The notes under the pieces: model-generated
The model's input: the letters and a program-made list of their open reading frames with translations, nothing else
Told to the model about the DNA's origin: nothing
Database searches by the model: none
Source: a virus
Reading direction: 5' to 3' (one strand)
Length of the DNA stretch: 43,163 bases
IMG/VR virus record: IMGVR_UViG_3300025646_000093
Coordinates: 1-43,163 of that record
Shown: positions 35,521-43,163 of the stretch, in pieces
Position numbering within the stretch: the first letter of the stretch is position 1
How the letters are laid out: each line of letters starts with the position of its first letter
Translations under genes and position numbers: made by a program

Positions 35521-36281
35521 CAAATAACTCTTGTTTTTTCGTGACCAACTCGTACCCGTGGATCGCACCAAATTTCAAAGCCAGCATCTTTTGCATCCAA
35601 ACAGAAACTGACATCTTCTCCACACATATCTTGAACCTCTCCAGATTCAAAAACTTGCATCTTAGGAGCAAACCAAGGATACTTCATTTCAGTGTGCTCA
35701 AATACTCCGTGCTTAATAAGCAACCAACCAAAACCAGTATAATCAACAGTAAATGGTTTGCGGCGCTTTGAGATTGTTTCGAGAGTTTCGTGGTTCATGA
35801 CACCACCATTACCACGGAAATCTTCTTCATCCAACCAGTGTGCAACTGAAGTAGTCATACCATCTTCGGTGCAATACCAACCAGCAGCAATATCTTTGTC
35901 CATCAGAATTAACTGATAGAATTTTTCGGTGTTGAATACAATATCAGAGTCAATCCATAATTGCCAATCATATTTAAGTTTTCCGTCCCAAGGAAGTTGG
36001 TCTGGTCCTCTAAGAACATTTGCCCCTAAGCATTTGCAACGGGCAAAATTAACCATCGAACTATAATCTTGAGAGATTTGAATGCTTGCCCCATTCTGCA
36101 CAAGATCGAAGCACATCTGCACGAAATTCTTCAAGAATGTGTAAGAAACTCCTCTTCCAGGTAAACAGAAAACAATTGATTTTCCACGGATAATTTCGCG
36201 TGCTTTGTCGTAATCGAATTCTTGTTCTGGGGCGCTTGATGAAATTGGGGTTTTTGCTTTTACGGTAAATCCTTTAGCCAT
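35520..36281 (-). CDS. GT-A-type glycosyltransferase
   Basis: A 253-residue protein with a nucleotide-sugar-binding fold: SIVFCLPGRGVSYTFLKNFVQM near 35-56, a conserved Arg/Asn stretch (MVNFARCKCLGANVL), and a DxD-type metal motif D111-S-D113 inside WQLWIDSDIVF. The C-terminal half has GEDVSFCLDAKDAGFEIWCDPRVRVGHEK, the acceptor-side signature of family 2-like transferases. Such genes are common in cyanophages and may glycosylate virion proteins or host surface sugars; the substrate cannot be told. Composition is intermediate between the AT-rich virion genes and the GC-rich block. No Shine-Dalgarno sequence precedes the start. Confidence 0.82.
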   Translation of the reverse strand: MAKGFTVKAKTPISSSAPEQEFDYDKAREIIRGKSIVFCLPGRGVSYTFLKNFVQMCFDLVQNGASIQISQDYSSMVNFARCKCLGANVLRGPDQLPWDGKLKYDWQLWIDSDIVFNTEKFYQLILMDKDIAAGWYCTEDGMTTSVAHWLDEEDFRGNGGVMNHETLETISKRRKPFTVDYTGFGWLLIKHGVFEHTEMKYPWFAPKMQVFESGEVQDMCGEDVSFCLDAKDAGFEIWCDPRVRVGHEKTRVI

Positions 36282-36304
36282 AATAGGAATAATTTTACTT
36301 CAGT

Positions 36305-36333
36305 ATCATACATCATTATGTATGTAATGTCAA
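36305..36333 (-). promoter_or_regulatory. Host-type promoter of the glycosyltransferase with hairpin spacer
   Basis: On the minus strand TTGACA (36328-36333) is followed by a 17-nt spacer and TATGAT (36305-36310), a near-consensus sigma-70-type promoter. The TTGACA contains the TGA stop of the upstream 57-residue gene. The spacer and -10 hold a perfect 7-bp hairpin (CATACAT-AATG-ATGTATG, 36307-36324). The leader would be about 20 nt with no Shine-Dalgarno sequence. Confidence 0.7.
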
Positions 36334-36503
36334 TCTGCGCTTTCTGCCAGAATTATTTCATTTCCATCTATTTTTAACTCTATTTCAGTATCTTCGTACC
36401 ATGAGAAGTCATTCACGATCCACTCAGGAATTGTAATATAGTACTCGCCGCTTACTGGATCTACTTGCAGGCGCTGGCAATTGTTTTCAAAATTCTTTTT
36501 CAT
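36330..36503 (-). CDS. Small protein with AbrB/SpoVT-like strand pattern
   Basis: A 57-residue protein, MKKNFENNCQRLQVDPVSGE then YYITIPEWIVNDFSWYEDTEIELKIDGNEIILAE. The pattern (ITIPxWIxxxxxWxxxTxIxxxIDGNxIIL) resembles a swapped-hairpin AbrB/MazE-type domain (xxIPxxIxxxLxxxxGxxVxxxVxxxxIxI). It also looks like a conserved cyanophage small ORF. DNA binding is an inference from fold pattern only. It is the last gene before the gene-free junction to the GC-rich block; its stop codon forms part of the next promoter. Confidence 0.7.
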   Translation of the reverse strand: MKKNFENNCQRLQVDPVSGEYYITIPEWIVNDFSWYEDTEIELKIDGNEIILAESAD

Positions 36504-36748
36504 CCCACTCTTATTGTGATTTTTTCTTTATATAGTATATTTCGGATTTATGTGCGACCTGTGAGAGAATTTTTATGGGGGGAATTTTTTTAGTCTGAGA
36601 GTATTATAAGTCTCATTTGGGTAACACTTTATAGATTAGGGGATCCATCGGTTTTAAGCCACGCGCCCGCCGCCATCACGATACCGTTATACAATAATAC
36701 TGCCCTGCGGCACGAACGAATAGGGGGGCTGTGCCGCCCCCCTCACTG
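36504..36748 (-). other. Gene-free junction between AT-rich and GC-rich zones
   Basis: I see no convincing gene here. The left two thirds are AT-rich and contain -10-like strings on the minus strand (TATACT near 36,535 and TATAAT near 36,612) without good -35 partners. Composition shifts sharply near 36,655. The right end carries a strong GC hairpin (36,722-36,743). A 15-codon minus-strand frame (36,629-36,676) is too short to support. Confidence 0.6.
36722..36743 (-). terminator. GC-rich hairpin after the first tiny gene
   Basis: AGGGGGGC pairs with GCCCCCCT over a 6-nt loop, starting 5 nt beyond the stop codon of the 63-residue gene. No U-run follows, so it is terminator-like rather than a classical intrinsic terminator. 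It is the last of the series of GC hairpins that end the tiny genes. Confidence 0.55.
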
Positions 36749-36940
36749 TCACTTCACGTCGCCCAGGGCGCTGTTGGTGGTGCTCATGCGGGTGCCGCGT
36801 GAGCCAGCAGCGCCGCCGTGAGTGCGAACGCGGGTGCTGCCGCCCTTGATCTGATTTGCCCAGCGGTTAGCACGGGTGCCATGGGCAACGGGCAGGCGGG
36901 TGATGGTGAACTGGATGCCGTCGATGGTGGTGGTGGTCAT
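36749..36940 (-). CDS. Tiny basic protein, first of the GC-rich cassette array
   Basis: A 63-residue protein (MTTTTIDGIQFTITRLPVAH then GTRANRWANQIKGG, ending in a Gly/Arg/Ser-rich tail). The start at 36940 follows a TTGACC-17-TATAAT promoter by about 25 nt; the frame is open further upstream but would cross that promoter. There is no Shine-Dalgarno sequence near the ATG. I do not recognise a family; a basic RG-rich tail could bind nucleic acid. It is the leftmost gene of the array and ends in a strong hairpin. Confidence 0.65.
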   Translation of the reverse strand: MTTTTIDGIQFTITRLPVAHGTRANRWANQIKGGSTRVRTHGGAAGSRGTRMSTTNSALGDVK

Positions 36941-36965
36941 CAGGTGCGGTGCGGTGTACTCCAGA

Positions 36966-37003
36966 ATTATACAGGGTCGGGGGTGGATGGTCAACCCACC
37001 CCC
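36966..37003 (-). promoter_or_regulatory. Fused hairpin and promoter (for the gene at 36,749-36,940)
   Basis: Minus strand: TTGACC (36989-36994), 17-nt spacer, TATAAT (36966-36971). The TTGACC lies in the loop of an 8-bp hairpin, GGGGGTGG / CCACCCCC (36979-37003), that begins just after the stop of the upstream gene. Confidence 0.75.
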
Positions 37004-37009
37004 AGCAGA

Positions 37010-37267
37010 TCAGATCGCCAGGGCGGCGGCAAGGCGATCACGCTTGCGGATCGCGGTGGGCACGATGAACCAGAGGTCGCGCTTGCCGTTGTCGCTGCGG
37101 GTGGCATCCAGGATGCCTGCCTTCTCAAGGTCAACCATCACGGCGTGGATGGTGCCCTTATGGCGGCGGGGGTCCATGCCCATGGCGCGAACCAGGTCGC
37201 TGCAGGTCATCGGGCCGTCGTTGATCAGGCGGGTGCGGATCGCGGTGCGGATGATGGAGGTGAGCAT
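37010..37267 (-). CDS. Winged-helix-like small DNA-binding protein
   Basis: An 85-residue protein with a helix-turn-helix pattern: MTCSDLVRAMGMDPRRHKGTIHAVMVDLEKAGILDA, then a wing-like KRDLWFIV strand pair. This matches the general layout of winged-helix (MarR/GntR-like) recognition domains. A role as an early transcription regulator is plausible because every neighbour has its own promoter. The start at 37267 lies about 25 nt after a TATAAT box, with no Shine-Dalgarno sequence. The specific family is not certain. Confidence 0.75.
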   Translation of the reverse strand: MLTSIIRTAIRTRLINDGPMTCSDLVRAMGMDPRRHKGTIHAVMVDLEKAGILDATRSDNGKRDLWFIVPTAIRKRDRLAAALAI

Positions 37268-37291
37268 CGGGTGCGGTGCGTTTGCTCTGGA

Positions 37292-37328
37292 ATTATACAG
37301 GGTCGGGGGGAAGGGGTCAACCCTCCCC
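37292..37328 (-). promoter_or_regulatory. Fused hairpin and promoter (for the winged-helix gene)
   Basis: Minus strand: TTGACC (37315-37320), 17-nt spacer, TATAAT (37292-37297). A GC hairpin with one bulge (GGGGAGGG against CCCTTCCCC, 37307-37328) places the TTGACC around its loop. Confidence 0.7.
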
Positions 37329-37335
37329 GTAGGGG

Positions 37336-37527
37336 TCAGTACCCCAACCAGGTCAGCAGTTCGCCAGCGTCGATGCCGCCGATGCCCCAGCGGTCAGCGG
37401 TGCCGTACTCCTGCAGGAACTCATTCATGCTGCCGTGGAGGTCGGCAGCATACAGGGCGTCATCATAGGTGACGCACCCACAGTCGTCAGCGATGTGCAG
37501 CAGTTGCTCGGTGAAGGTCTCAGGCAT
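37336..37527 (-). CDS. Tiny acidic protein, unknown function (63 aa)
   Basis: MPETFTEQLLHIADDCGCVTYDDALYAADLHGSMNEFLQEYG and an ending of GIDAGELLTWLGY. Acidic and mostly helical. The start at 37527 lies about 25 nt after TATAAT; a frame extension upstream would run through the promoter. A GGGAA string sits 4 nt before the ATG, a weak ribosome site. I do not recognise a family. The ending of paired acidic and leucine residues resembles small phage modulators, but no function can be assigned. Confidence 0.65.
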   Translation of the reverse strand: MPETFTEQLLHIADDCGCVTYDDALYAADLHGSMNEFLQEYGTADRWGIGGIDAGELLTWLGY

Positions 37528-37551
37528 GGTTCCCTTGCGGTGTGCTCCAGA

Positions 37552-37586
37552 ATTATACAGGATGGGGGGTCGTTTGCCAACCCCCC
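37552..37586 (-). promoter_or_regulatory. Fused hairpin and promoter (for the gene at 37,336-37,527)
   Basis: Minus strand: TTGGCA (37575-37580), 17-nt spacer, TATAAT (37552-37557). Hairpin GGGGGGT / ACCCCCC (37564-37586) carries most of the -35 hexamer in its loop. Confidence 0.75.
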
Positions 37587-37594
37587 CTGGGGGG

Positions 37595-37801
37595 TCAGAT
37601 CTGCTCTGCCATCTGCTCACGGATCATGGTGCGGATGGCGAAGGCGCTCTCACGGATGCTGCGGCAGGCGCTGGGTGCCATGCCGTTCTCACCGTTGCGG
37701 GCAGCAGTCTCCAGTTCGCCCCAGCGGATACCAGCGTCGATCAGAGCGTGGCAGATCTCATCAGCGATGGCAGGGGTCACGGTCAGGGTCAGGGTGGTCA
37801 T
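37595..37801 (-). CDS. Tiny helical protein, unknown function (68 aa)
   Basis: MTTLTLTVTPAIADEICHAL then DAGIRWGELETAARNGENGM and a second helix SIRESAFAIRTMIREQMAEQI. Two amphipathic helices follow a short beta-like head. The start at 37801 follows its TATAAT by about 25 nt with no Shine-Dalgarno sequence; codons upstream of it cover the promoter and are unlikely to be translated. Not recognised. Confidence 0.65.
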   Translation of the reverse strand: MTTLTLTVTPAIADEICHALIDAGIRWGELETAARNGENGMAPSACRSIRESAFAIRTMIREQMAEQI

Positions 37802-37826
37802 CAGGTCCGTGGCGGTTTGCTTTGGA

Positions 37827-37864
37827 ATTATACAGGGTGGGTGGGGCACCCGTCAAGGTGCCCC
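37827..37864 (-). promoter_or_regulatory. Fused hairpin and promoter, -35 exactly in the loop
   Basis: Minus strand: perfect 8-bp stem GGGGCACC / GGTGCCCC (37843-37864) with a 6-nt loop TTGACG, which is the -35 hexamer (37851-37856). An 18-nt spacer leads to TATAAT (37827-37832). It drives the 68-residue gene at 37,595-37,801. Confidence 0.78.
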
Positions 37865-37871
37865 GTAGGGG

Positions 37872-38036
37872 TCACCAGAGCAGGTCAGCGATTGCTTCCA
37901 GGCGCTGCTGGCGGGTTGCCAGTTCCTTCAGGATGGCCCGCTGCTCCTTGGCGGTGGGGTTGCCTTCCCACAGCCACTCCTCCAGTTGGAAGGAGGTCAG
38001 GTCGTCGAAGGCGGTGGCGATGGTTCCGTCCAGCAT
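37872..38036 (-). CDS. Tiny helical protein, unknown function (54 aa)
   Basis: MLDGTIATAFDDLTSFQLEE then WLWEGNPTAKEQRAILKELATRQQRLEAIADLLW. Mostly helical, with a C-terminal amphipathic helix. The start at 38036 lies about 25 nt after TATAAT; the frame is open upstream only because the promoter region happens to lack stops. No Shine-Dalgarno sequence. Not recognised. Confidence 0.65.
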   Translation of the reverse strand: MLDGTIATAFDDLTSFQLEEWLWEGNPTAKEQRAILKELATRQQRLEAIADLLW

Positions 38037-38060
38037 GGGGTGCGGTGCGTTTGCTTTGGA

Positions 38061-38096
38061 ATTATACAGGGTCGGGGGGCAGGAGGTCAACCCTCC
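38061..38096 (-). promoter_or_regulatory. Promoter whose -35 contains the upstream stop codon
   Basis: Minus strand: TTGACC (38085-38090), 18-nt spacer, TATAAT (38061-38066). The TGA inside TTGACC is the stop codon of the 59-residue gene upstream. A 5-bp hairpin GGAGG / CCTCC (38082-38096) encloses it. Confidence 0.72.
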
Positions 38097-38266
38097 CAGG
38101 TCGCCACGTCGTCGGCGTAGTGTTCGGCGTAGCGTGCTGCCCACCAGTACCCTTCGGCAGGGTTGATCTGTCCAGCGAAGCGATCCTGGGGGGCATACTC
38201 AGTCTTACGGGTCACCCACATGGTTTCGCGGGTCTGGAGGTCGGAGCACTGTGAGAAGATTGCCAT
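38087..38266 (-). CDS. Tiny Trp-rich protein, unknown function (59 aa)
   Basis: MAIFSQCSDLQTRETMWVTR, KTEYAPQDRFAGQINPAEGY, WWAARYAEHYADDVATWEG. Rich in aromatic residues. The ATG at 38266 lies about 25 nt after TACAAT; an in-frame ATG at 38353 lies inside the upstream gene and is rejected. The final GGT-TGA is shared with the next promoter's -35 element. Not recognised. Confidence 0.65.
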   Translation of the reverse strand: MAIFSQCSDLQTRETMWVTRKTEYAPQDRFAGQINPAEGYWWAARYAEHYADDVATWEG

Positions 38267-38290
38267 GGGGGGGGTGTCGGTTGCTTGGGT

Positions 38291-38296
38291 ATTGTA
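38291..38296 (-). promoter_or_regulatory. -10 box of the gene at 38,087-38,266
   Basis: Minus-strand TGCTACAAT: an extended -10 (TGC before TACAAT). It lies 6 nt beyond the stop codon of the upstream gene, so any -35 contact would fall inside that coding sequence. No clear TTGACA match and no GC hairpin here. Confidence 0.5.
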
Positions 38297-38301
38297 GCAG
38301 A

Positions 38302-38487
38302 TCAGAAGCGCACTGCCCAGTTCGGATCGGTCAGGCAGTTGATCCAGGCGCACCAGGTGCGGTTGCTGCTCACGCAGAACAGGTCGTTGCCCTGGCGCTG
38401 CTCAACCACCACCACGGGGTCGCCTGCCATCTGGTTTGCCAGGCGGTTCTTTGCCTTGGCAGAGATGGGGGTCAGGGTCACGGTCAT
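38302..38487 (-). CDS. Tiny basic protein, unknown function (61 aa)
   Basis: MTVTLTPISAKAKNRLANQM, AGDPVVVVEQRQGNDLFCVS, SNRTWCAWINCLTDPNWAVRF. A helix-like basic head, a beta-hairpin-like middle (PVVVVEQRQGNDLFCV) and a Cys/Trp-rich end. The start at 38487 lies about 22 nt after TACAAT. Not recognised; it has the shape of small phage proteins that bind host factors, which is speculation. Confidence 0.65.
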   Translation of the reverse strand: MTVTLTPISAKAKNRLANQMAGDPVVVVEQRQGNDLFCVSSNRTWCAWINCLTDPNWAVRF

Positions 38488-38508
38488 CGGTCGGTTGCGG
38501 TTGAGAGA

Positions 38509-38538
38509 ATTGTAGCACGGGGGGCGGGTGTGCCCCCC
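38509..38538 (-). promoter_or_regulatory. Hairpin and -10 box of the gene at 38,302-38,487
   Basis: Hairpin GGGGGGC / GCCCCCC with a 6-nt loop (38519-38538) lies between the upstream stop codon and a TACAAT -10 box (38509-38514, preceded by TGC). This member of the series lacks TTGACC in the loop. Confidence 0.6.
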
Positions 38539-38545
38539 TGGCGGA

Positions 38546-38770
38546 TCAAACCGCCACCCAGTAGGATTTGCCGCTGCGCTCCTGCTGCTCTGCCATGATG
38601 TAGTCGGCGCTGCCCGTGCTGCTGCGCCATCCCTGCATCTGGAAGTAGCAGTCCTCCAGGGTGGTGGCATAGGCAAGGGTGCGGGCGATCTTACCGCCCT
38701 TCACGAACGCCACCGCGAACGGGTAGCGGGTGGGGGAGAGGATCGTCTGCAGGGGGGTGGGGTCGGTCAT
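38546..38770 (-). CDS. Small protein, unknown function (74 aa)
   Basis: MTDPTPLQTILSPTRYPFAV, AFVKGGKIARTLAYATTLED, CYFQMQGWRSSTGSADYIMA, then EQQERSGKSYWVAV. A beta-alpha-beta layout is plausible (FAVAFVKGGKIARTLAYATTLEDCYFQM). The start at 38770 is about 25 nt after TATACT, in the shared leader TGATCTCAGTTCGC. No Shine-Dalgarno sequence. Not recognised. Confidence 0.65.
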   Translation of the reverse strand: MTDPTPLQTILSPTRYPFAVAFVKGGKIARTLAYATTLEDCYFQMQGWRSSTGSADYIMAEQQERSGKSYWVAV

Positions 38771-38793
38771 CGGTTCAGGTGCGAACTGAGATC

Positions 38794-38828
38794 AGTATAG
38801 CAGGTCAGGGGCAGGGGTCAACCTGCCC
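38794..38828 (-). promoter_or_regulatory. Fused hairpin and promoter, -35 exactly in the loop
   Basis: Minus strand: perfect 7-bp stem GGGCAGG / CCTGCCC (38809-38828) whose 6-nt loop is TTGACC, the -35 hexamer (38816-38821). A 16-nt spacer leads to the extended -10 TGC-TATACT (38794-38799). It drives the 74-residue gene. Confidence 0.78.
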
Positions 38829-38838
38829 ATTAGGGGGG

Positions 38839-39018
38839 TCAGCGGATCACCTTGACCACTTCGCCCTTGTGGCGGATCACGATAGAGGTGAAGGAGGGGT
38901 GGAACCCCTTGGCGCTGCGAACGGCACCTGCCAGGGAGGTGCAGTGGGTCATGCAGGATGCTGCATCGGGGGTGGAACCAGCAACAACGGTGAAGTCGCG
39001 GGTCTTGATGGTTGCCAT
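38839..39018 (-). CDS. Tiny protein with RHKGEVVKVIR end (59 aa)
   Basis: MATIKTRDFTVVAGSTPDAA, SCMTHCTSLAGAVRSAKGFH, then PSFTSIVIRHKGEVVKVIR. A beta-strand head, a central helix with two Cys, and a basic C-terminal beta-hairpin (SIVIRHKGEVVKVI). The start at 39018 lies about 25 nt after TATACT in the shared leader type. Not recognised. Confidence 0.65.
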   Translation of the reverse strand: MATIKTRDFTVVAGSTPDAASCMTHCTSLAGAVRSAKGFHPSFTSIVIRHKGEVVKVIR

Positions 39019-39042
39019 GGGGTTGGGTGGTGAACTTCGATC

Positions 39043-39085
39043 AGTATAGCAGGTCAGGGGGCAAAGGGGAGGGTCGGAACCCTCC
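39043..39085 (-). promoter_or_regulatory. Hairpin and extended -10 of the gene at 38,839-39,018
   Basis: Hairpin GGAGGGT / ACCCTCC with a 4-nt loop (39068-39085) follows the upstream stop codon; TGC-TATACT (39043-39048) follows. I see no -35 match at 16-18 nt, so the extended -10 may suffice. Confidence 0.6.
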
Positions 39086-39117
39086 GCTGTGCCGCCTAGC
39101 GGGTCGGCGCAGTGTGA

Positions 39118-39267
39118 TCAGAAATCGATGGCATCAAGTGTAGGGTCTGCGCTGTACTCATCACATTCGTCAACACTATCCCCCAGAACAAGAGAGTCAA
39201 GAATTTGCAAGATTTGTGCGCCGTTGTTGCCAGAGCGGAGGAGAGAAAGCGCAAGGTCGCGGGTCAT
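39118..39267 (-). CDS. Tiny conserved cyanophage protein (LLRSGNNGxQILxILD)
   Basis: A 49-residue protein: MTRDLALSLLRSGNNGAQIL, QILDSLVLGDSVDECDEYSA, DPTLDAIDF. The head (LALSLLRxGNNGxxILxILD) and the acidic tail ending in DAIDF occur as a recurring tiny ORF in marine T4-like cyanophages. Function unknown. The gene is less GC-rich than its neighbours (39,121-39,180 has 28 G/C in 60). The start at 39267 has no Shine-Dalgarno sequence. Confidence 0.72.
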   Translation of the reverse strand: MTRDLALSLLRSGNNGAQILQILDSLVLGDSVDECDEYSADPTLDAIDF

Positions 39268-39323
39268 CGTAGAGTTTGCAATTAGGTGGGGTGGCAGTCT
39301 TTAAGGCGCTGCCATTCCTTTGA

Positions 39324-39485
39324 TCATCGCTCCAGTTGCGCCAGCGATGAGGGGGCGATGTGGGAGGGCGATCCGCAGGAGCGGTAAAACTCAACCATCC
39401 GATCTGCCTCCTCCTTGGTTGTGAACCACTGTGAGCGCCACTCACACTGGTTGTAGGGAGTCTGGTAGCGAACTTCGAAGCGCAT
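39324..39485 (-). CDS. Tiny protein, unknown function (53 aa)
   Basis: MRFEVRYQTPYNQCEWRSQW, FTTKEEADRMVEFYRSCGSP, SHIAPSSLAQLER. A beta-hairpin-like head (FEVRYQTPYNQCEWRSQWF) and a helix (TKEEADRMVEFYRSCG). This is a familiar layout for small phage proteins. The start at 39485 follows TACACT by about 23 nt. The 56-nt gap to the next gene holds a weak hairpin (39,293-39,313). Confidence 0.65.
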   Translation of the reverse strand: MRFEVRYQTPYNQCEWRSQWFTTKEEADRMVEFYRSCGSPSHIAPSSLAQLER

Positions 39486-39507
39486 GGGGTTGGTTGCGAA
39501 CTTGATC

Positions 39508-39541
39508 AGTGTAGCATGGAAAGGGGGGCAGGAGCGCCCCC
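39508..39541 (-). promoter_or_regulatory. Hairpin and extended -10 of the gene at 39,324-39,485
   Basis: Hairpin GGGGGC / GCCCCC with a 6-nt loop (39524-39541), then TGC-TACACT (39508-39513) and the leader TGATCAAGTTCG. Same layout as its neighbours; no clear -35. Confidence 0.6.
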
Positions 39542-39548
39542 GCAGGGT

Positions 39549-39815
39549 TCAGAAATCGAACACGTCGCCGTTGATCTCTGCACGGTTGATCTCTGGATCG
39601 TTCCACATCACGCCATCAGGGGTTTGAGTGCTGCCGTGATCATAGAGCGCTTCCAGCAGTTCCTCATAACAGCAAACGTCATTCTGCTGGATGAAGTCTT
39701 GGATGCTCTCATCATTCTCAATCCAGAGCACAACATTCCAGGTTTTGTAGTTAGTCCAACCGTTGTAGGTAACATCCAGCAGGTTGGTTTGGTGAGTGCG
39801 GGTTGCGGTTGCCAT
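39549..39815 (-). CDS. NGWxNYxTWNVxLWI-type conserved phage protein
   Basis: An 88-residue protein with the motif YNGWTNYKTWNVVLWIENDESI near residues 17-38. This is the hallmark of a widespread phage family (NGWxNYETWNVxLWxxND, DUF7249-like; name from memory). It then has an acidic tail (NDPEINRAEINGDVFDF). Function unknown; the family is common in the early regions of cyanophages. The start at 39815 lies about 25 nt after TATACT, with the element TGAACACGTTCA in the leader. Confidence 0.8.
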   Translation of the reverse strand: MATATRTHQTNLLDVTYNGWTNYKTWNVVLWIENDESIQDFIQQNDVCCYEELLEALYDHGSTQTPDGVMWNDPEINRAEINGDVFDF

Positions 39816-39841
39816 GGTGTGGTGTGGTGTTGAACGTGTTC

Positions 39842-39877
39842 AGTATAGCACGGGAAGGGGGGGCAGTGGTGCCCCCC
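39842..39877 (-). promoter_or_regulatory. Hairpin and extended -10 of the gene at 39,549-39,815
   Basis: Perfect 8-bp hairpin GGGGGGCA / TGCCCCCC with a 4-nt loop (39858-39877), then TGC-TATACT (39842-39847), then TGAACACGTTCA in the leader. Confidence 0.65.
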
Positions 39878-39884
39878 GCAGGGT

Positions 39885-40067
39885 TCAGTACTCCTCCCCG
39901 TATGCGCAGCACAGGGAGAAATACTCCAGGGCAGCGTCGTCTTCATACTGGGCATAATAGTCTTCGGATGCCTGCTCCTCAGTCTCCAGGTAGAGGTCGA
40001 TCTCCTCTGAGGTCCAGCACTCGGGCAGTTCGTCGATCTGAGGGGCGTCAGTGAAGGCGTAGGTCAT
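39885..40067 (-). CDS. Tiny acidic protein, unknown function (60 aa)
   Basis: MTYAFTDAPQIDELPECWTS, EEIDLYLETEEQASEDYYAQ, YEDDAALEYFSLCCAYGEEY. Very acidic, with many Tyr and Glu: a possible DNA mimic or host-factor decoy, which is speculation. The start at 40067 lies about 26 nt after TATACT, in a leader with TGAACACGTTCA. Not recognised. Confidence 0.68.
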   Translation of the reverse strand: MTYAFTDAPQIDELPECWTSEEIDLYLETEEQASEDYYAQYEDDAALEYFSLCCAYGEEY

Positions 40068-40093
40068 GATCGGTTCAGGCGTTGAACGTGTTC

Positions 40094-40127
40094 AGTATAG
40101 CATGGGAAGGGGGCAGGGTGTGCCCCC
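40094..40127 (-). promoter_or_regulatory. Hairpin and extended -10 of the acidic gene
   Basis: Hairpin GGGGGCA / TGCCCCC with a 5-nt loop (40109-40127), then the extended -10 TGC-TATACT (40094-40099) and TGAACACGTTCA. Confidence 0.65.
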
Positions 40128-40138
40128 CCCCAGGGCGA

Positions 40139-40315
40139 TCAGATGGCGCTGGTGCCCTTGCTCACCCAGAGCGCCAGGCGCATGGTGCCTGCCTTGCTCA
40201 CCTGCTGGGCGGTGCGCCCCTGTGCCATGGCGGCGGTCTTCAGGCACTGGCGCTGGGCGTCAGTCATGCCCGTGATCACGTTGCGGGCGTTCTGGAGGAG
40301 TTGCTGCTGGGTCAT
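40139..40315 (-). CDS. Tiny helical protein, unknown function (58 aa)
   Basis: MTQQQLLQNARNVITGMTDA, QRQCLKTAAMAQGRTAQQVS, KAGTMRLALWVSKGTSAI. Two or three short helices, basic overall, with a helix-turn-helix-like spacing (TDAQRQCLKTAAMAQGRTAQQVSKAG). DNA binding is possible but not shown. The start at 40315 lies about 26 nt after TATACT in the leader with TGAACACGTTCA. Confidence 0.65.
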   Translation of the reverse strand: MTQQQLLQNARNVITGMTDAQRQCLKTAAMAQGRTAQQVSKAGTMRLALWVSKGTSAI

Positions 40316-40341
40316 GGTCGGTTCGGGTGTTGAACGTGTTC

Positions 40342-40376
40342 AGTATAGCATGGGGGTGGGGGTGCTGGGCACCCCC
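40342..40376 (-). promoter_or_regulatory. Hairpin and extended -10 of the gene at 40,139-40,315
   Basis: Perfect 8-bp hairpin GGGGGTGC / GCACCCCC with a 3-nt loop (40358-40376), then TGC-TATACT (40342-40347) and TGAACACGTTCA. Confidence 0.65.
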
Positions 40377-40383
40377 AGGGAGA

Positions 40384-40557
40384 TCAGGCGGTGATCTCCA
40401 TCCACTCCTGCTCGTTGCAGTAGATCACCACGGGAGCGCCGCCTAGTTCGATGCTCCAGTCGAAGGCAACGTCAACGGCGTGCTCCTCGCTGGTAAAAAA
40501 TTCGGCGTGGTCGATGCCAGTGCCCTTGGGGGCGGCGCTCCAGGAAGTGAAGGTCAT
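40384..40557 (-). CDS. Tiny acidic protein, unknown function (57 aa)
   Basis: MTFTSWSAAPKGTGIDHAEF, FTSEEHAVDVAFDWSIELGG, APVVIYCNEQEWMEITA. The layout is beta-helix-beta: SEEHAVDVAFDWSIELGG then PVVIYCNEQEWMEI. The start at 40557 lies about 24 nt after TATACT. Not recognised. Confidence 0.65.
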   Translation of the reverse strand: MTFTSWSAAPKGTGIDHAEFFTSEEHAVDVAFDWSIELGGAPVVIYCNEQEWMEITA

Positions 40558-40580
40558 CGGGTTGCTTGCGAACTGAGATC

Positions 40581-40586
40581 AGTATA
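40581..40586 (-). promoter_or_regulatory. -10 box of the gene at 40,384-40,557
   Basis: Minus-strand TATACT directly after the stop codon of the 38-residue gene, with the leader TGATCTCAGTTCGC. No separate hairpin lies in the 5-nt gap; a GGCGA / TCGCC hairpin sits inside the end of the upstream gene. Confidence 0.5.
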
Positions 40587-40591
40587 GAGGG

Positions 40592-40708
40592 TCAGCGGGC
40601 GATCAGGTCGCCTGCGGTGTACAGTGCCTGTGCTGTCACACCCCTGATGGGGCGGATCGGTTCCCAGAGCAGGCAGAGCAGCACCAGAGCGATCAGGGGG
40701 CGGAACAT
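40592..40708 (-). CDS. 38-residue membrane microprotein
   Basis: MFRPLIALVLLCLLWEPIRP then IRGVTAQALYTAGDLIAR. Residues 4-15 form a short hydrophobic helix, followed by a basic segment and an amphipathic tail, so a single-pass inner-membrane or signal-anchored peptide is likely. Small ORFs of this shape recur in cyanophages. The ATG is only 3 nt beyond the U-run of a strong intrinsic terminator, and I see no promoter in that space. Expression would therefore need read-through from the upstream gene. A role at the membrane (superinfection exclusion, lysis timing) is only speculation. Confidence 0.62.
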   Translation of the reverse strand: MFRPLIALVLLCLLWEPIRPIRGVTAQALYTAGDLIAR

Positions 40709-40711
40709 ACT

Positions 40712-40734
40712 AAAAAGGGGGGCAATCGCCCCCC
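40712..40734 (-). terminator. Intrinsic terminator directly before a microprotein gene
   Basis: Perfect 7-bp stem GGGGGGC / GCCCCCC with loop GATT, followed by TTTTT on the minus strand. It lies 6 nt after the stop of the KTSC-like gene. It is the clearest classical rho-independent terminator of the array. Confidence 0.85.
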
Positions 40735-40740
40735 AGGTTA

Positions 40741-40965
40741 TCACACAGTGGCAGGCACCTGGGTGAGTTGATCACCACGGATTGCCAGATTGATGAACTT
40801 ACCCACGGAGTCTTCGTTTTCGATCACCAGGTTGAGATCGGCAACGAAACCAGAAGGATCGGTCACGTTGTAGGTATAGTCACGCCCACCGTTGAAGGTA
40901 ACAGTCACTTGACCGTTTTGCACTTCGCTGATGTTTTCGATGGCGCTGGATTGGAACTTGAACAT
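40741..40965 (-). CDS. KTSC-like small protein
   Basis: A 74-residue protein: MFKFQSSAIENISEVQNGQV, TVTFNGGRDYTYNVTDPSGF, VADLNLVIENEDSVGKFINL, then AIRGDQLTQVPATV. The SSAIxxIxxxxxGxVTVTFxGGRDYTYNV stretch resembles the KTSC domain seen in small phage proteins and lysyl-tRNA-synthetase tails. Function unknown. The start at 40965 has a 70-nt leader, longer than its neighbours', with overlapping inverted repeats. A 33-codon frame extension into that leader is rejected because it crosses the promoter. Confidence 0.75.
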   Translation of the reverse strand: MFKFQSSAIENISEVQNGQVTVTFNGGRDYTYNVTDPSGFVADLNLVIENEDSVGKFINLAIRGDQLTQVPATV

Positions 40966-40979
40966 AATCAGAAAAAAAG

Positions 40980-41035
40980 GTAAAGGGTTGAGTGAAGTGT
41001 TTTGAGCGGGATGCTTCACCCCCGCTGATGTGATC
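40980..41035 (-). promoter_or_regulatory. Structured 5' leader of the KTSC-like gene
   Basis: On the minus strand AGCGGG can pair with CCCGCT, and GTGAAG with CTTCAC. The two hairpins overlap in sequence and cannot form fully at the same time. A U-run (TTTTTTT) follows about 15 nt later, near the start codon. This could be a switch or attenuator, but no known riboswitch class is recognisable. Confidence 0.35.
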
Positions 41036-41068
41036 AGTATGGCACGGATTGGGGGTGGGGTCAACCCC
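41036..41068 (-). promoter_or_regulatory. Promoter of the KTSC-like gene
   Basis: Minus strand: TTGACC (41059-41064), 17-nt spacer, CATACT (41036-41041, preceded by TGC). A short GGGG / CCCC hairpin (41057-41068) encloses the -35 region, as elsewhere in the array. Confidence 0.68.
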
Positions 41069-41090
41069 CTGTGTGCCAGTTGTCAGATCG

Positions 41091-41264
41091 TCACTCTTCT
41101 AGCAGTTCAGGGTAGTATTCTTCACACTCGGTGATCAATTCTTCATCAGAATAGCGTCCATAACCCTCGTCGAGGTAGTCATAACACAGTTGGGTCATTG
41201 TCTTGAGGTCCATGTCATCCAGCATCATCTGAATGAGAGCATCTTGCAGTTCAGAACGGTTCAT
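41091..41264 (-). CDS. Small acidic cyanophage protein (DMDLKTMTQLCYDYL)
   Basis: A 57-residue protein: MNRSELQDALIQMMLDDMDL, KTMTQLCYDYLDEGYGRYSD, EELITECEEYYPELLEE. The motif DDMDLKTxTQLCYDYLxExYxxYSxxEL and the acidic YYPELLEE end are conserved in cyanomyoviruses. Function unknown. The ATG overlaps the stop of the upstream gene by one base (TGATG), so this is the third gene of a translationally coupled trio. Its composition is lower in GC than the array to the left. Confidence 0.78.
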   Translation of the reverse strand: MNRSELQDALIQMMLDDMDLKTMTQLCYDYLDEGYGRYSDEELITECEEYYPELLEE

Positions 41265-41410
41265 CAGACTTCATCCCTCATTTCGGTGAGTTTATCATAC
41301 AGAAGCGGAATGTCTGCCTCTGTAAGTTCAGTCAGGTAATGCCAATCGCTAGTCTCAAGAATTGCCATCAGGGCATCAATCTCCTGATAGTTGAGGTGCG
41401 TGAGTGTCAT
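41264..41410 (-). CDS. Tiny helical protein, middle gene of a coupled trio (48 aa)
   Basis: MTLTHLNYQEIDALMAILET, SDWHYLTELTEADIPLLYDK, LTEMRDEV. Helical and acidic. Both ends overlap neighbours by one base (TGATG at each junction), so translation is likely coupled throughout the trio. Not recognised. Confidence 0.72.
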   Translation of the reverse strand: MTLTHLNYQEIDALMAILETSDWHYLTELTEADIPLLYDKLTEMRDEV

Positions 41411-41559
41411 CACAGGGTGTAGTTGCTGTTGAGCATTTGGATGAAGTTTGCGTAAATTTCATCACCCTCGATGAACTTGCTGCGATCAAACTCTTCGGGG
41501 ATAATGTCAAAGATCTCTTCATCAGCAGAGTCTTCGATCTCAAAGAAGTAAGTGTCCAT
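41410..41559 (-). CDS. Tiny acidic protein, first gene of a coupled trio (49 aa)
   Basis: MDTYFFEIEDSADEEIFDII, PEEFDRSKFIEGDEIYANFI, QMLNSNYTL. Strongly acidic with a beta-like head. It opens a three-gene operon (41,559 down to 41,091). Upstream lies a GGGGGGT / ACCCCCC hairpin (about 41,597-41,616) with a TTGCGA in its loop, but the matching -10 box is poor. Not recognised. Confidence 0.7.
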   Translation of the reverse strand: MDTYFFEIEDSADEEIFDIIPEEFDRSKFIEGDEIYANFIQMLNSNYTL

Positions 41560-41596
41560 GGGTGTGTCTCAGGAACAAACGTAGTTTTGCATGGGT

Positions 41597-41616
41597 GTGG
41601 GGGGTATCGCAACCCC
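41597..41616 (-). terminator. GC hairpin before the coupled trio
   Basis: GGGGGGT / ACCCCCC with loop TGCGAT, between the stop of the membrane-protein gene (41,632) and the trio. It has no U-run. Its loop again overlaps a TTG-type -35-like string, matching the fused layout of the GC-rich array. Confidence 0.5.
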
Positions 41617-41631
41617 CCTTGTGCCAGTTGC

Positions 41632-41964
41632 TCAGGCGTCCAGGGCACCCTGCTCGTTGAGCATACCCCAGGCGATGCCGTTGCTATACAAACCGATGTA
41701 ACGGTTGCCAACACTCAACCCAACGATTTCATCGCCAGGTTCACCGATCATGTTCACACCCAGGTAGAAGTATTTGGTGAACATTTCAGGAGTTTGGAAC
41801 TTCATGGTTTGGATCTTCTCCCAGAGAATAGTAGCAACCACATAGGCGATTGCGGCAACAGTGAGAACAAAACTCCGCACATCTTGGTAGAGTTTTTTGT
41901 AGTCAACCTCCTGCAGAATGTCGATCAGAGCATCAGCAGGGGGGAAGGATTTGGTGAGGTTCAT
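41632..41964 (-). CDS. Small membrane protein, unknown function (110 aa)
   Basis: Residues about 30-48 (RSFVLTVAAIAYVVATILW) form one clear transmembrane helix after an amphipathic head (MNLTKSFPPADALIDILQEV). The rest is soluble: a beta-rich domain with GVNMIGEPGDEIVGLSVGNRYIGLYSNGIAWGML. It may sit in the host inner or thylakoid membrane with the C-terminal domain on one side. I do not recognise a family. The 5' leader is about 50 nt, with its promoter at 42,018-42,046. Confidence 0.72.
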   Translation of the reverse strand: MNLTKSFPPADALIDILQEVDYKKLYQDVRSFVLTVAAIAYVVATILWEKIQTMKFQTPEMFTKYFYLGVNMIGEPGDEIVGLSVGNRYIGLYSNGIAWGMLNEQGALDA

Positions 41965-42017
41965 GTCAAGAATTGTGTGGGCGGGGGAATGTAGAGAAGT
42001 GTCCCAACCACGAGATC

Positions 42018-42046
42018 AGTATGGCACACCAGGGGCACCAGGGCAA
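42018..42046 (-). promoter_or_regulatory. Promoter of the small membrane-protein gene
   Basis: Minus strand: TTGCCC (42041-42046), 17-nt spacer, CATACT (42018-42023, preceded by TGC), followed by TGATCTCG, similar to the leaders in the array. Confidence 0.55.
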
Positions 42047-42092
42047 GGGGTTGCAACATTCCGTAACATCAGGGCATCTTATCAGTGCCATC

Positions 42093-42148
42093 AGGTATTC
42101 TAATGTGCCAGGGGCTTGACACATCTTGTAATCTTGACTAGAATACCT
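42093..42148. repeat. Perfect 10-bp inverted repeat around a promoter
   Basis: AGGTATTCTA (42093-42102) and TAGAATACCT (42139-42148) are exact inverted copies separated by 36 nt. The right arm contains the -10 box of the plus-strand promoter, so the pair looks like an operator. A direct repeat CTTGAC lies between the arms. Confidence 0.6.
42116..42144 (+). promoter_or_regulatory. Consensus plus-strand promoter with no gene behind it
   Basis: TTGACA (42116-42121), 17-nt spacer, TAGAAT (42139-42144). It is the only strong plus-strand promoter I noticed; no reading frame follows within 300 nt. A non-coding RNA or a promoter for replication priming is possible. Confidence 0.6.
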
Positions 42149-42168
42149 TTGCTAGGTTTGAAGATAAG

Positions 42169-42186
42169 AATATAAAGCTTTATATT
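42169..42186. repeat. 18-bp perfect AT-rich palindrome
   Basis: AATATAAAGCTTTATATT reads the same on both strands. It lies just downstream of the plus-strand promoter. It may be a binding site for a dimeric protein or the stem of an RNA hairpin. Confidence 0.6.
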
Positions 42187-42208
42187 ATACTTTAAAGAGA
42201 TGCGTTAG

Positions 42209-42227
42209 CATACCCCGAAGGGGTATG
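42209..42227. repeat. GC hairpin CATACCCC-GAA-GGGGTATG
   Basis: Perfect 8-bp stem with a GAA loop (TTC on the other strand). It could end or fold a small plus-strand RNA starting near 42,150, giving a transcript of about 80 nt; no U-run follows. Confidence 0.5.
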
Positions 42228-42302
42228 AGTTGATATACTATAAGCACGACAGATGGTGTGGGAAGGGGTGAGTGGGGTGAAGCACTATTCTTGCACATAA
42301 AG

Positions 42303-42331
42303 AAAAAGGCAGGGTCACCACTCCCTGCCTT
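42303..42331 (-). terminator. Intrinsic terminator of the tRNA transcript
   Basis: On the minus strand GGCAGGG pairs with CCCTGCC over an 8-nt loop, followed by TTTTT. It lies about 105 nt beyond the tRNA 3' end. Confidence 0.8.
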
Positions 42332-42435
42332 ATGATCTCCACTTACATCTTACCTTTATATAAACACCACGTACCTATGTGTATGATATAACGTTCTCTC
42401 GCGTGTATGGGTGGTGATTGTCTCAAACCACCCAA

Positions 42436-42520
42436 TAGGAGTAGGGAGACTTGAACTCCCACGGGCGTTATGCCCAACAGATTTTAAGTCTGGTGTGTCT
42501 ACCGATTCCACCATACTCCC
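42436..42520 (-). tRNA. tRNA-Leu (anticodon UAA)
   Basis: The minus strand folds into a class II tRNA of 85 nt. The acceptor stem is GGGAGTA with TACTCCT (a G-U pair at the first position). The anticodon arm is CAGACTTAAAATCTG with anticodon TAA, the long variable arm is TGGGCATAACGCCCG, and the T arm is GGGAGTTCAAGTCTCCC. The discriminator is A, and no CCA is encoded. It would read UUA and, by wobble, UUG codons, and UUA is frequent in the AT-rich virion genes. tRNA-Leu(UAA) is a common cyanophage tRNA. A consensus promoter sits just upstream. Confidence 0.93.
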
Positions 42521-42529
42521 ATGTTGTAT

Positions 42530-42558
42530 AGTATACGCTATCTCGTACATGATGTCAA
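42530..42558 (-). promoter_or_regulatory. Consensus promoter of tRNA-Leu with overlapping inverted repeat
   Basis: Minus strand: TTGACA (42553-42558), 17-nt spacer, TATACT (42530-42535); transcription would start only a few nt before the mature tRNA. The -35 box lies in GTCAACACGTTGAC, an inverted repeat with a 2-nt centre, which looks like an operator. Confidence 0.75.
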
Positions 42559-42669
42559 CGTGTTGACATTCTCGTAATGATAGTGTATACTATGATGTAT
42601 ACATGATCTCGTAGAGATGTGTATAAGATACGTGTGCATCTCGTACACATCTCGCACGCGATCTCGTAC
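42540..42669. repeat. Cluster of six ATCTCGTAC-like direct repeats
   Basis: ATCTCGTAC occurs exactly at 42540-42548, 42638-42646 and 42661-42669, and with one or two changes at 42568-42576, 42606-42614 and 42649-42657. All share the same orientation. Three GTATAC palindromes are interspersed. The cluster fills the gap between the tRNA promoter and the ArdA-like gene. Confidence 0.65.
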
Positions 42670-42670
42670 C

Positions 42671-43141
42671 TTACCAGGTGCTAGAGAATACGCAACCGTC
42701 TACAAACTCGTAGTCGTAACGTAATCCCTGGTCCCAGGTTGCCTGCCAATCAACAATCACGAACGAGGGAACATTCAGTCCATAGCAGTCAACGGTAAGT
42801 TGCTCTGCAAAGTCTGACTCGGAGTCATAACGCCCTTGGAATACATCTTCAAAGTGCTCAAGATCGCACTCTTCCCAGATTTCCAGGAATGCATTCACGG
42901 CATCGTCACCGTAGTTCTCACACAGGTCTTCGTAGGTTTCCTGATACTCCTCAGAGATTTCTGTGGGTTCAGGTTTGTTCAGAAGACCCTTTGCATCCAG
43001 CAGTTCAGTATAAAACTGAGTGTAGTGCAGTTTGCCGTCGCTCTCATAACCACATGCCCGAACGATTTCAGACATTTTGGCAGGCGGTTCTTGTGCCTGC
43101 ATCTCATCCACTTTAGAAACGAGTTCGGTGCCTTTGAGCAT
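42671..43141 (-). CDS. cyAbrB-like / ArdA-like fusion protein
   Basis: The 156-residue protein starts at ATG 43141; an in-frame start 7 codons upstream lacks the family head. Residues 1-52 (MLKGTELVSKVDEM, SEIVRACGYESDGK, YTQFYTELLDAKGL) match the conserved part of cyanobacterial AbrB regulators (LxGxxLLxKVxEL...SELVRACGYxS...NFTAFYEALLEAKG). Residues about 65-156 match the C-terminal domain of ArdA antirestriction proteins: FEDVFQGRYDSESDFAEQL, then a hydrophobic WQATWDQGLRYDYEFVDG and CVF. ArdA mimics B-form DNA and blocks type I restriction enzymes. The fusion could couple host-regulator interference with antirestriction; that is inference. Acidic, as expected for ArdA. It may continue an operon beyond the window. 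Confidence 0.78.
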   Translation of the reverse strand: MLKGTELVSKVDEMQAQEPPAKMSEIVRACGYESDGKLHYTQFYTELLDAKGLLNKPEPTEISEEYQETYEDLCENYGDDAVNAFLEIWEECDLEHFEDVFQGRYDSESDFAEQLTVDCYGLNVPSFVIVDWQATWDQGLRYDYEFVDGCVFSSTW

Positions 43142-43163
43142 GGGGTGATCCCTCAAGAACAAA

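Follow-up and report, generated by a model that had tools for sequence, protein, structure and literature searches.

A conserved plus-strand promoter and G-rich hairpin as a candidate non-coding RNA element of uncultured T4-like cyanophages

The window analyzed here is the whole of the 43,163-bp linear virus record IMGVR_UViG_3300025646_000093 and, judged by its matches, it is a fragment of a T4-like cyanophage. Its DNA matched mainly cyanophages, those of Synechococcus and others, and all 10 of the minus-strand frames tested matched PHROG families, including terminase, tail sheath, baseplate wedge and head-closure proteins. From about 36 kb on, the G+C content rises from about 30% to about 60%, in an island of small frames. 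This island (approximately 36,000–42,000) reaches up to 63% G+C beside the structural region of 30% G+C, and the sign of the GC skew flips there. It was originally predicted that everything in the window other than the promoter lies on the minus strand, which agrees with the ten frames tested; in the island at about 36–42 kb, long frames that may or may not be genes are present on both strands. The element described here lies to the right of the island, between a 110-aa minus-strand ORF and a minus-strand tRNA-Leu (UAA) gene, beyond which is an ArdA-like gene. The features of the locus are as follows.

41632–41964, minus strand: 110-aa ORF, the left neighbor, of unassigned function (no match in Pfam or PHROG)
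42018–42046, minus strand: divergent promoter-like site TTGCCC-17-CATACT upstream of ORF 41632–41964, read from the sequence
42093–42148, no strand assigned: exact 10-bp inverted repeat with arms 42093–42102 and 42139–42148, the second arm overlapping the −10 box
42111–42144, plus strand: promoter consisting of GGGGC, −35 box TTGACA (42116–42121), 17-nt spacer and −10 box TAGAAT (42139–42144), with 11 of 12 consensus matches
42169–42186, no strand assigned: 18-bp AT palindrome in the AT-rich leader (repeat search)
42209–42227, plus strand: GC hairpin CATACCCC-GAA-GGGGTATG in the leader (repeat search)
42253–42299, plus strand: near-invariant 47-nt G-rich core, a predicted RNA hairpin (conservation and folding)
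42306–42331, minus strand: terminator-like hairpin downstream of the tRNA, with no T tract after it in the plus-strand reading
42435–42521, minus strand: tRNA-Leu (UAA), convergent with the putative plus-strand transcript (tRNA search)
42671–43141, minus strand: ArdA-like anti-restriction protein, the right neighbor (phrog_36653, E 7.8e-16)

The Pfam ArdA score of the right neighbor was 19.1 bits, under the cut-off of 27. The divergent minus-strand promoter-like site, GTGCCATACT or a variant of it, recurs among relatives, as does the terminator-like hairpin GGCAGGGAGTGGTGNCCCTGCC at 42306–42331, which is found with stem and loop even in some relatives that have no tRNA. Beside the tRNA there are two near-consensus promoters (11/12 each) that lie side by side and point apart, at 42530–42558 on the minus strand and 42563–42591 on the plus strand; the pair sits within an imperfect inverted repeat, and the plus-strand one has no obvious gene.

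The TTGACA-17-TAGAAT promoter that had been predicted was confirmed at 42116–42144 on the plus strand, and the predicted transcription start is at about 42151. A single match of this kind proves little by itself, because promoter-like sites are frequent in this region: 11 were found in 38000–43163, compared to 3.1 in shuffled sequences (sd 1.9). Promoter conservation was evaluated by scoring the best plus-strand sigma-70-like site within 290 nt upstream of the core, at 57 core loci (the window and 56 contigs) that were reduced to 32 distinct loci by removing near copies on the basis of shared 12-mers. It was found that 27 of the 32 loci scored at least 10/12 (26 of 31 when the window, the only locus not picked by its core, is left out), whereas sites this good were found at 8 of the 32 loci when the minus strand was read and in 63 of 640 shuffled sequences. 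The spacer was 17 nt in all 27 of these promoters, and the distance from promoter to core was 121–163 nt in 24 of them, the others being L138 (86 nt) and L032 and L139 (248–249 nt). Hexamers resembling TTGACA and TATAAT and separated by 16–18 nt are thus conserved above chance, as in a sigma-70-type promoter. The five loci below 10/12 were L025, L028 and L039 (9), L133 (8) and L136 (7); L133 appears to be rearranged, and L039 and L136 are in a different context. The −10 box variants found among the loci (TAGAAT, TATAAT, TAGGAT, TAGACT and TAAAGT) are of a type that may preserve a promoter. A column profile of the hexamers overstates their conservation, because its loci were chosen by the hexamer pattern, a bias from which the count of 27 of 32 is free. 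In the DNA upstream of homologues of the 110-aa protein, both hexamers were kept and the spacer sequence differed.

With its surroundings (GGGGC before and C.TTG after), the promoter occurs in 79 viral contigs, of which several lack the core and have other gene contexts. The same type of promoter lies between gp55 and an annotated methylamine utilization gene in the marine T4-like cyanophages Syn19 (NC_015286.1, 120,622–120,672; L140:3501–3551) and S-SKS1 (NC_020851.1, 97,298–97,439; L141:3501–3642), where it opposes the annotated genes of the 7-kb region, faces uvsW and uvsY, and has no annotated gene on its own strand. The core was not found in these two 7-kb regions (best 13 mismatches).

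The 10-bp inverted repeat, the 18-bp AT palindrome and the GC hairpin, all named in the original prediction, are present at the places given there, and most related phages do not keep them. In a set of 29 promoter-bearing loci, which excludes L039, L133 and L136 as having no promoter of the form searched, the exact inverted repeat was kept in 3, an AT palindrome of at least 18 bp in 5, and a CCCCG.AGGGG hairpin in 12, with unrelated hairpins at about the same place elsewhere. Some perfect hairpin arm of at least 8 bp was present in the leader of 19 of the 29 loci, a count made without a chance control. The 10-bp inverted repeat is, on the sequence, probably incidental. The mean A+T content of the leader was 0.69. 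In alignment A1, which holds 27 of the 29 loci (L032 and L139 were omitted because their leaders are about 100 nt longer), the leader folded better than shuffles on both strands equally, with mean z values of −2.42 and −2.58 over the 27 rows, which fits palindromes and not a strand-specific RNA fold. The approximately 100 extra nt between promoter and core in L032 (12591–12800) and L139 contain a AGATAGGATTGAACTC-like stretch, which by eye resembles a remnant of the 3′ half of a minus-strand tRNA.

The most conserved element of the locus is the core at 42253–42299, which is outside the coordinates of the original prediction and was missed by it. Its consensus is ATGGTG-Y-GGG-N-AGGGGTGAG-Y-GGGGTGAAGCAC, followed by one or two variable bases and ATTCT-Y-GCAC. 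A search with the 110-aa neighbor protein gave 19 loci, and a G-rich stretch downstream of the promoter was nearly letter-identical among them: the core was present with 0 or 1 mismatch in 13 of the 19 and absent from 6 (best 14 mismatches), one of which, L018, covers just 180 nt upstream of the gene. A G-rich 30-mer was found in 46 viral contigs by an exact scan and in 56 by a relaxed scan, and a scan in which 12–24 nt of mid-core were left free gave 57 contigs, the same 56 and one having an extra G. The 30-mer patterns fix most core positions, and the free-middle scan and the protein-anchored set are checks without that bias. The core was present as a single copy in 12 of 12 records, including records of 205 kb and 177 kb and some fragments, and it occurs once in the window.

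The position of the core in these records is also regular. In all 9 records containing both, the phrog_1574 gene ends 5.8–6.9 kb left of the core; the corresponding distances are 6.0 kb for the window and 6.2 kb for L138. The remaining 3 of the 12 records have no phrog_1574, and in these the core falls within the first 6 kb of the contig. The predicted location at a module boundary therefore holds in one sense, in that the core keeps this distance from phrog_1574 and lies beyond the GC-rich island of small frames. In 10 of the 12 records, no more than 0.4 kb separates the core from an ArdA-like gene on its right, although the match in G002 is one of 19 aa at the contig end; G004 has an ArdA-like match only elsewhere, and G012, whose contig stops there, has none. 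In L138, a GP88-family gene is found to the right of the core in place of the ArdA-like gene. The neighbors of the core in L039 and L138 thus differ from those in the window, which argues against control of one particular neighbor.

No reading frame is kept in the core, because one-base indels in the variable bases between GCAC and ATTC shift the frame among loci and lead to a stop there in L038 and L050. Short frames across the core were for this reason rejected as coding, and the absence of a conserved frame is as expected of a small non-coding RNA of a phage. In Rfam, no family reached its gathering score at 41980–42700 except tRNA; weak matches on the minus strand, for example to Virus_CITE_4 at 42288–42364 (24.1 bits compared to the required 40), were taken as chance. 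A BLAST search of reference phages gave no significant match to the core (all matches had E 4, and the low-complexity filter may hide the G-rich part). An exact 22-mer of the core was found in none of 84,980 prokaryote species, and the core was absent at up to 3 mismatches from six cyanobacterial genomes, so that a host target or a host origin was rejected for the hosts searched.

Repeated sequences were also observed to the right of the core. The motif GCACATATTCTTGCAC of the 3′ arm, or a near copy, is found again downstream in L053 (2641–2657 and 2699–2715) and, by eye, in L025, L043, L059 and L157; with two such copies, either might pair with the hairpin's 5′ arm in competition with the other. 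Short repeats that vary by phage group (ATCTCGTA, CTCGTCGAGAT, GAATCTAGTT and CTGCGT) lie at 42528–42669 in the window, L053:2674–2869, L039:6704–6928 and L138:8679–8781. As candidate iterons, these repeats exist but are not the same between groups.

In the predicted structure of the core, arms at 42256–42264 and 42288–42296 form a stem in which GUGUGGGAA pairs with UUCUUGCAC, and an inner set of pairs joins 42268–42270 with 42283–42285 (GUG with CAC). The nine distinct cores of alignment A1 folded on the plus strand with −12.9 to −17.3 kcal/mol and z values of −2.27 to −4.6, and 0–8 of 300 shuffles folded equally well, whereas the same cores on the minus strand gave −2.3 to −5.1 kcal/mol and z values of −0.06 to −1.47. 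Strand-specific structure beyond that of shuffles was thus found in all nine distinct cores, although those of L135 and L138 reach their energy minimum in another register. In a longer RNA of the window, the main stem makes up about 45% of the ensemble, with competing stems present.

Alignment A2 consisted of 20 distinct rows from the 32 loci (the other 12 share the 51-nt core of L022), and 239 of its 240 pair cells were standard pairs, compared to 30–74% of cells when the alignment was slid by 1–3 columns. This count leans toward the fold, because the fold was derived from the same sequences, and it is no evidence of covariation, because the shuffle control reached the observed pair values in 500 of 500 cases. 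Three pairs of the stem vary on one side, with pairing kept in 8 cells and broken in 1, and none of the stem pairs in A2 was changed on both sides; compensatory change of the kind looked for in small non-coding RNAs was therefore not found among these relatives.

The G-rich sequence of the core was also evaluated as a possible quadruplex, and ViennaRNA with quadruplex energies favored the hairpin. The G4Hunter peak at the core was 1.96 on the plus strand. Position 40345 equals it, and no plus-strand site of the 43-kb window exceeds it; in G001, a record of 205 kb, it ranks second to a peak at 61259 (2.12). RNA duplexes with host regions for 16S, 6S and RNase P RNA were energetically no better than those of shuffles, 41–95 of 100 being as good; the loci used extended about 1.5 kb to either side of the RNA, and the 16S locus came from one of two genomes. 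A word common to the core and the 16S rRNA region, TGGGGTGAAG, was matched in 49 of 300 shuffles and was rejected. A 13-base word common with L242 was matched by 0 of 300 shuffles, in one of ten such comparisons; it is located past the 6S RNA, at a distance of about 365 nt and inside a long open frame of the host, and was taken as chance.

The extent of a transcript was evaluated from frames and terminators. The core ends about 149 nt past the predicted start, and an RNA of 70–90 nt, as had been proposed, would stop short of the conserved core. It had also been stated that no frame follows the promoter. There are in fact three plus-strand frames of at least 50 aa downstream, one of 51 aa at 42411–42566 that is antisense to the tRNA and two that run from 42836 (109 aa) and 42889 (75 aa) and are antisense to the ArdA-like gene, and we accepted none of them as a gene. 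No plus-strand terminator was found in the window from the leader to 400 nt past the core. Terminator-like sites on the plus strand were found in 12 of the 29 promoter-bearing loci (a count without a shuffle control), and no site was common to more than 2 of the 29, so that the element has no conserved intrinsic terminator of its own. The sites were before the core in five loci (L025, L032, L035, L135 and L139), in which the RNA would be cut before reaching it, and after the core in eight (L026, L030, L032, L043, L053, L063, L134 and L138).

The best reading of these observations, to which we give nearly even chances, is that the element is a new non-coding RNA of cyanophages that would be transcribed against its neighbors. 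The idea of an orphan plus-strand promoter serving a structured non-coding RNA is backed, at the level of sequence, by the conserved promoter, its spacing and the downstream hairpin. We infer from these features that the element is transcribed, where the transcript may end, and what its target and effect could be. The host RNA polymerase would presumably use the sigma-70-type promoter to make a short phage transcript that starts near 42151, passes through a variable leader, AT-rich and containing hairpins, and extends to the 47-nt G-rich hairpin. The hairpin and its G-rich apical loop would be the working part, with the loop as the likely contact surface, and its recognition could depend on its sequence, on base pairing with a C-rich RNA or on a protein, with an action in trans or genome-wide. 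The partner may be a protein or another RNA, since the host 16S, 6S and RNase P regions showed no pairing beyond that of shuffles.

Two kinds of known cyanophage RNA invite comparison. The antisense RNA CfrI of cyanophage S-PM2 is, in the part of PMC12197685 available, described as about 225 nt long and located between psbA and a homing endonuclease gene; the element resembles it in being a (predicted) non-coding RNA of a cyanophage and, compared by description, differs in its neighbors, which are tRNA-Leu, the ArdA-like gene and the 110-aa ORF. The wcaG, manA and PhotoRC-II motifs are conserved structured cyanophage RNAs that the available part of PMC2864571 describes with the genes they precede. 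The present element would likewise be a conserved structured RNA in cyanophages, but in the window no gene follows it, and none of the three motifs was found by Rfam at 41980–42700. In the portions available of PMC3016281, PMC9964418, PMC12197685, PMC2864571 and PMC3037559, the element is not mentioned.

Several other explanations were weighed against a non-coding RNA. The main rival is a transcription-primed replication origin similar to T4 oriF, which we consider unlikely. G-rich transcripts that form a hybrid or quadruplex prime replication in the case of ColE1 RNA II and mitochondrial CSB II, and the likeness of the element to these, compared by description, is its G-rich putative transcript. 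According to the available text of PMC3016281, T4 oriF and oriG are about 100 bp long and consist of a MotA-dependent middle promoter and an A+T-rich unwinding element, at which the RNA of an R-loop is the primer; oriE depends on an early promoter with iterons nearby, and a shift in nucleotide skew is found near oriE, oriF and oriG and not at every T4 origin. The element shares with oriF (at uvsY) and oriG a T4-like phage genome and a promoter followed by an A+T-rich stretch (the leader of 69% A+T), and it differs, so far as that text describes them, in its sigma-70-like site with a TTGACA box and its near-invariant G-rich hairpin, both known here from sequence alone. The strong plus-strand G4Hunter peak, the group-specific repeats to the right of the core, and a single copy at a fixed position with no conserved terminator also favor an origin. 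In contrast, T4 R-loops, as that source describes them, require no specific sequence, whereas the core is near-invariant and folds as a plus-strand hairpin, the structure that is also favored by ViennaRNA over a quadruplex. The G peak is moreover not unique, as additional G motifs of the R-loop type are present in the same genomes. The GC skew in G001 was negative almost throughout and made no clear turn at the core; the only positive 5-kb bin, at 60–65 kb, overlies the GC-rich island beside the core. The origin or priming site originally suggested has in its favor a layout resembling that of oriF and oriG, and the GC skew gave it no clear support. Contig ends were not clearly clustered at the core, with 6 on the right and 5 on the left within 1 kb among the 57 contigs (4.0 expected each) and 2 and 2 among the 29 contigs of at least 15 kb (0.9 expected), which speaks against an origin and led us to reject a genome terminus. 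In a more specific form, which we find rather improbable, the element would be the origin of a large uncultured group of T4-like cyanophages, at which RNA from an early, host-read promoter would, through its near-invariant G-rich segment, form a stable R-loop or hybrid quadruplex and prime the leading strand, as a sequence-specific version of T4 oriF with an adjoining group-specific repeat array.

Alternatively, the core might act as DNA, in packaging, in recombination or as the target of a DNA-binding protein, and the promoter would stand next to it for some other reason. A near-invariant primary sequence without two-sided covariation would fit this, as would the second copy of GCACATATTCTTGCAC 58 nt downstream in L053 (with similar distances by eye in others) and the three loci that retain the core without a recognizable promoter. 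The promoter nonetheless faces the core in 27 of the 32 loci, in 24 of them at the regular distance given above, and the predicted structure favors plus-strand RNA through G-U pairs that become A-C mismatches on the other strand, and we regard a DNA site as improbable. It is very unlikely that the promoter serves antisense transcription across tRNA-Leu and the ArdA-like gene, or transcription of a distant plus-strand gene, with the core as the leader. Such a transcript would indeed meet the tRNA and ArdA-like genes head-on, the same promoter type is antisense beside gp55 in the two marine phages, and a plus-strand frame starting with MxRGIIY, which appears GIY-YIG-like, was seen some 2 kb to the right in 5 of the 7 loci inspected; yet ARAGORN finds the tRNA in just 9 of 47 core loci, and the core persists in G004/L039 and L138 with no ArdA-like gene on its right. 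Promoter-like and palindromic sequence arising by chance in AT-rich DNA, without function, would agree with the frequent promoter-like matches in the region and with the poor conservation of the palindrome and inverted repeat. As an explanation of the whole element we give it hardly any credence, because promoter and core are conserved across 32 distinct loci, although we retain it for the 10-bp inverted repeat and, as the probable explanation, for the AT palindrome.

For cyanophage Syn9, a transcriptome study reportedly exists. The element was found without an earlier description in the literature found, Rfam or the reference phages. Were it an origin, it would provide a single defined place at which the initiation of replication in T4-like cyanophages could be tested. 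As an RNA, the reading that we favor, it would be a strongly sequence-constrained non-coding element common to many uncultured cyanophages, and it could offer a handle on how these phages act on their hosts.
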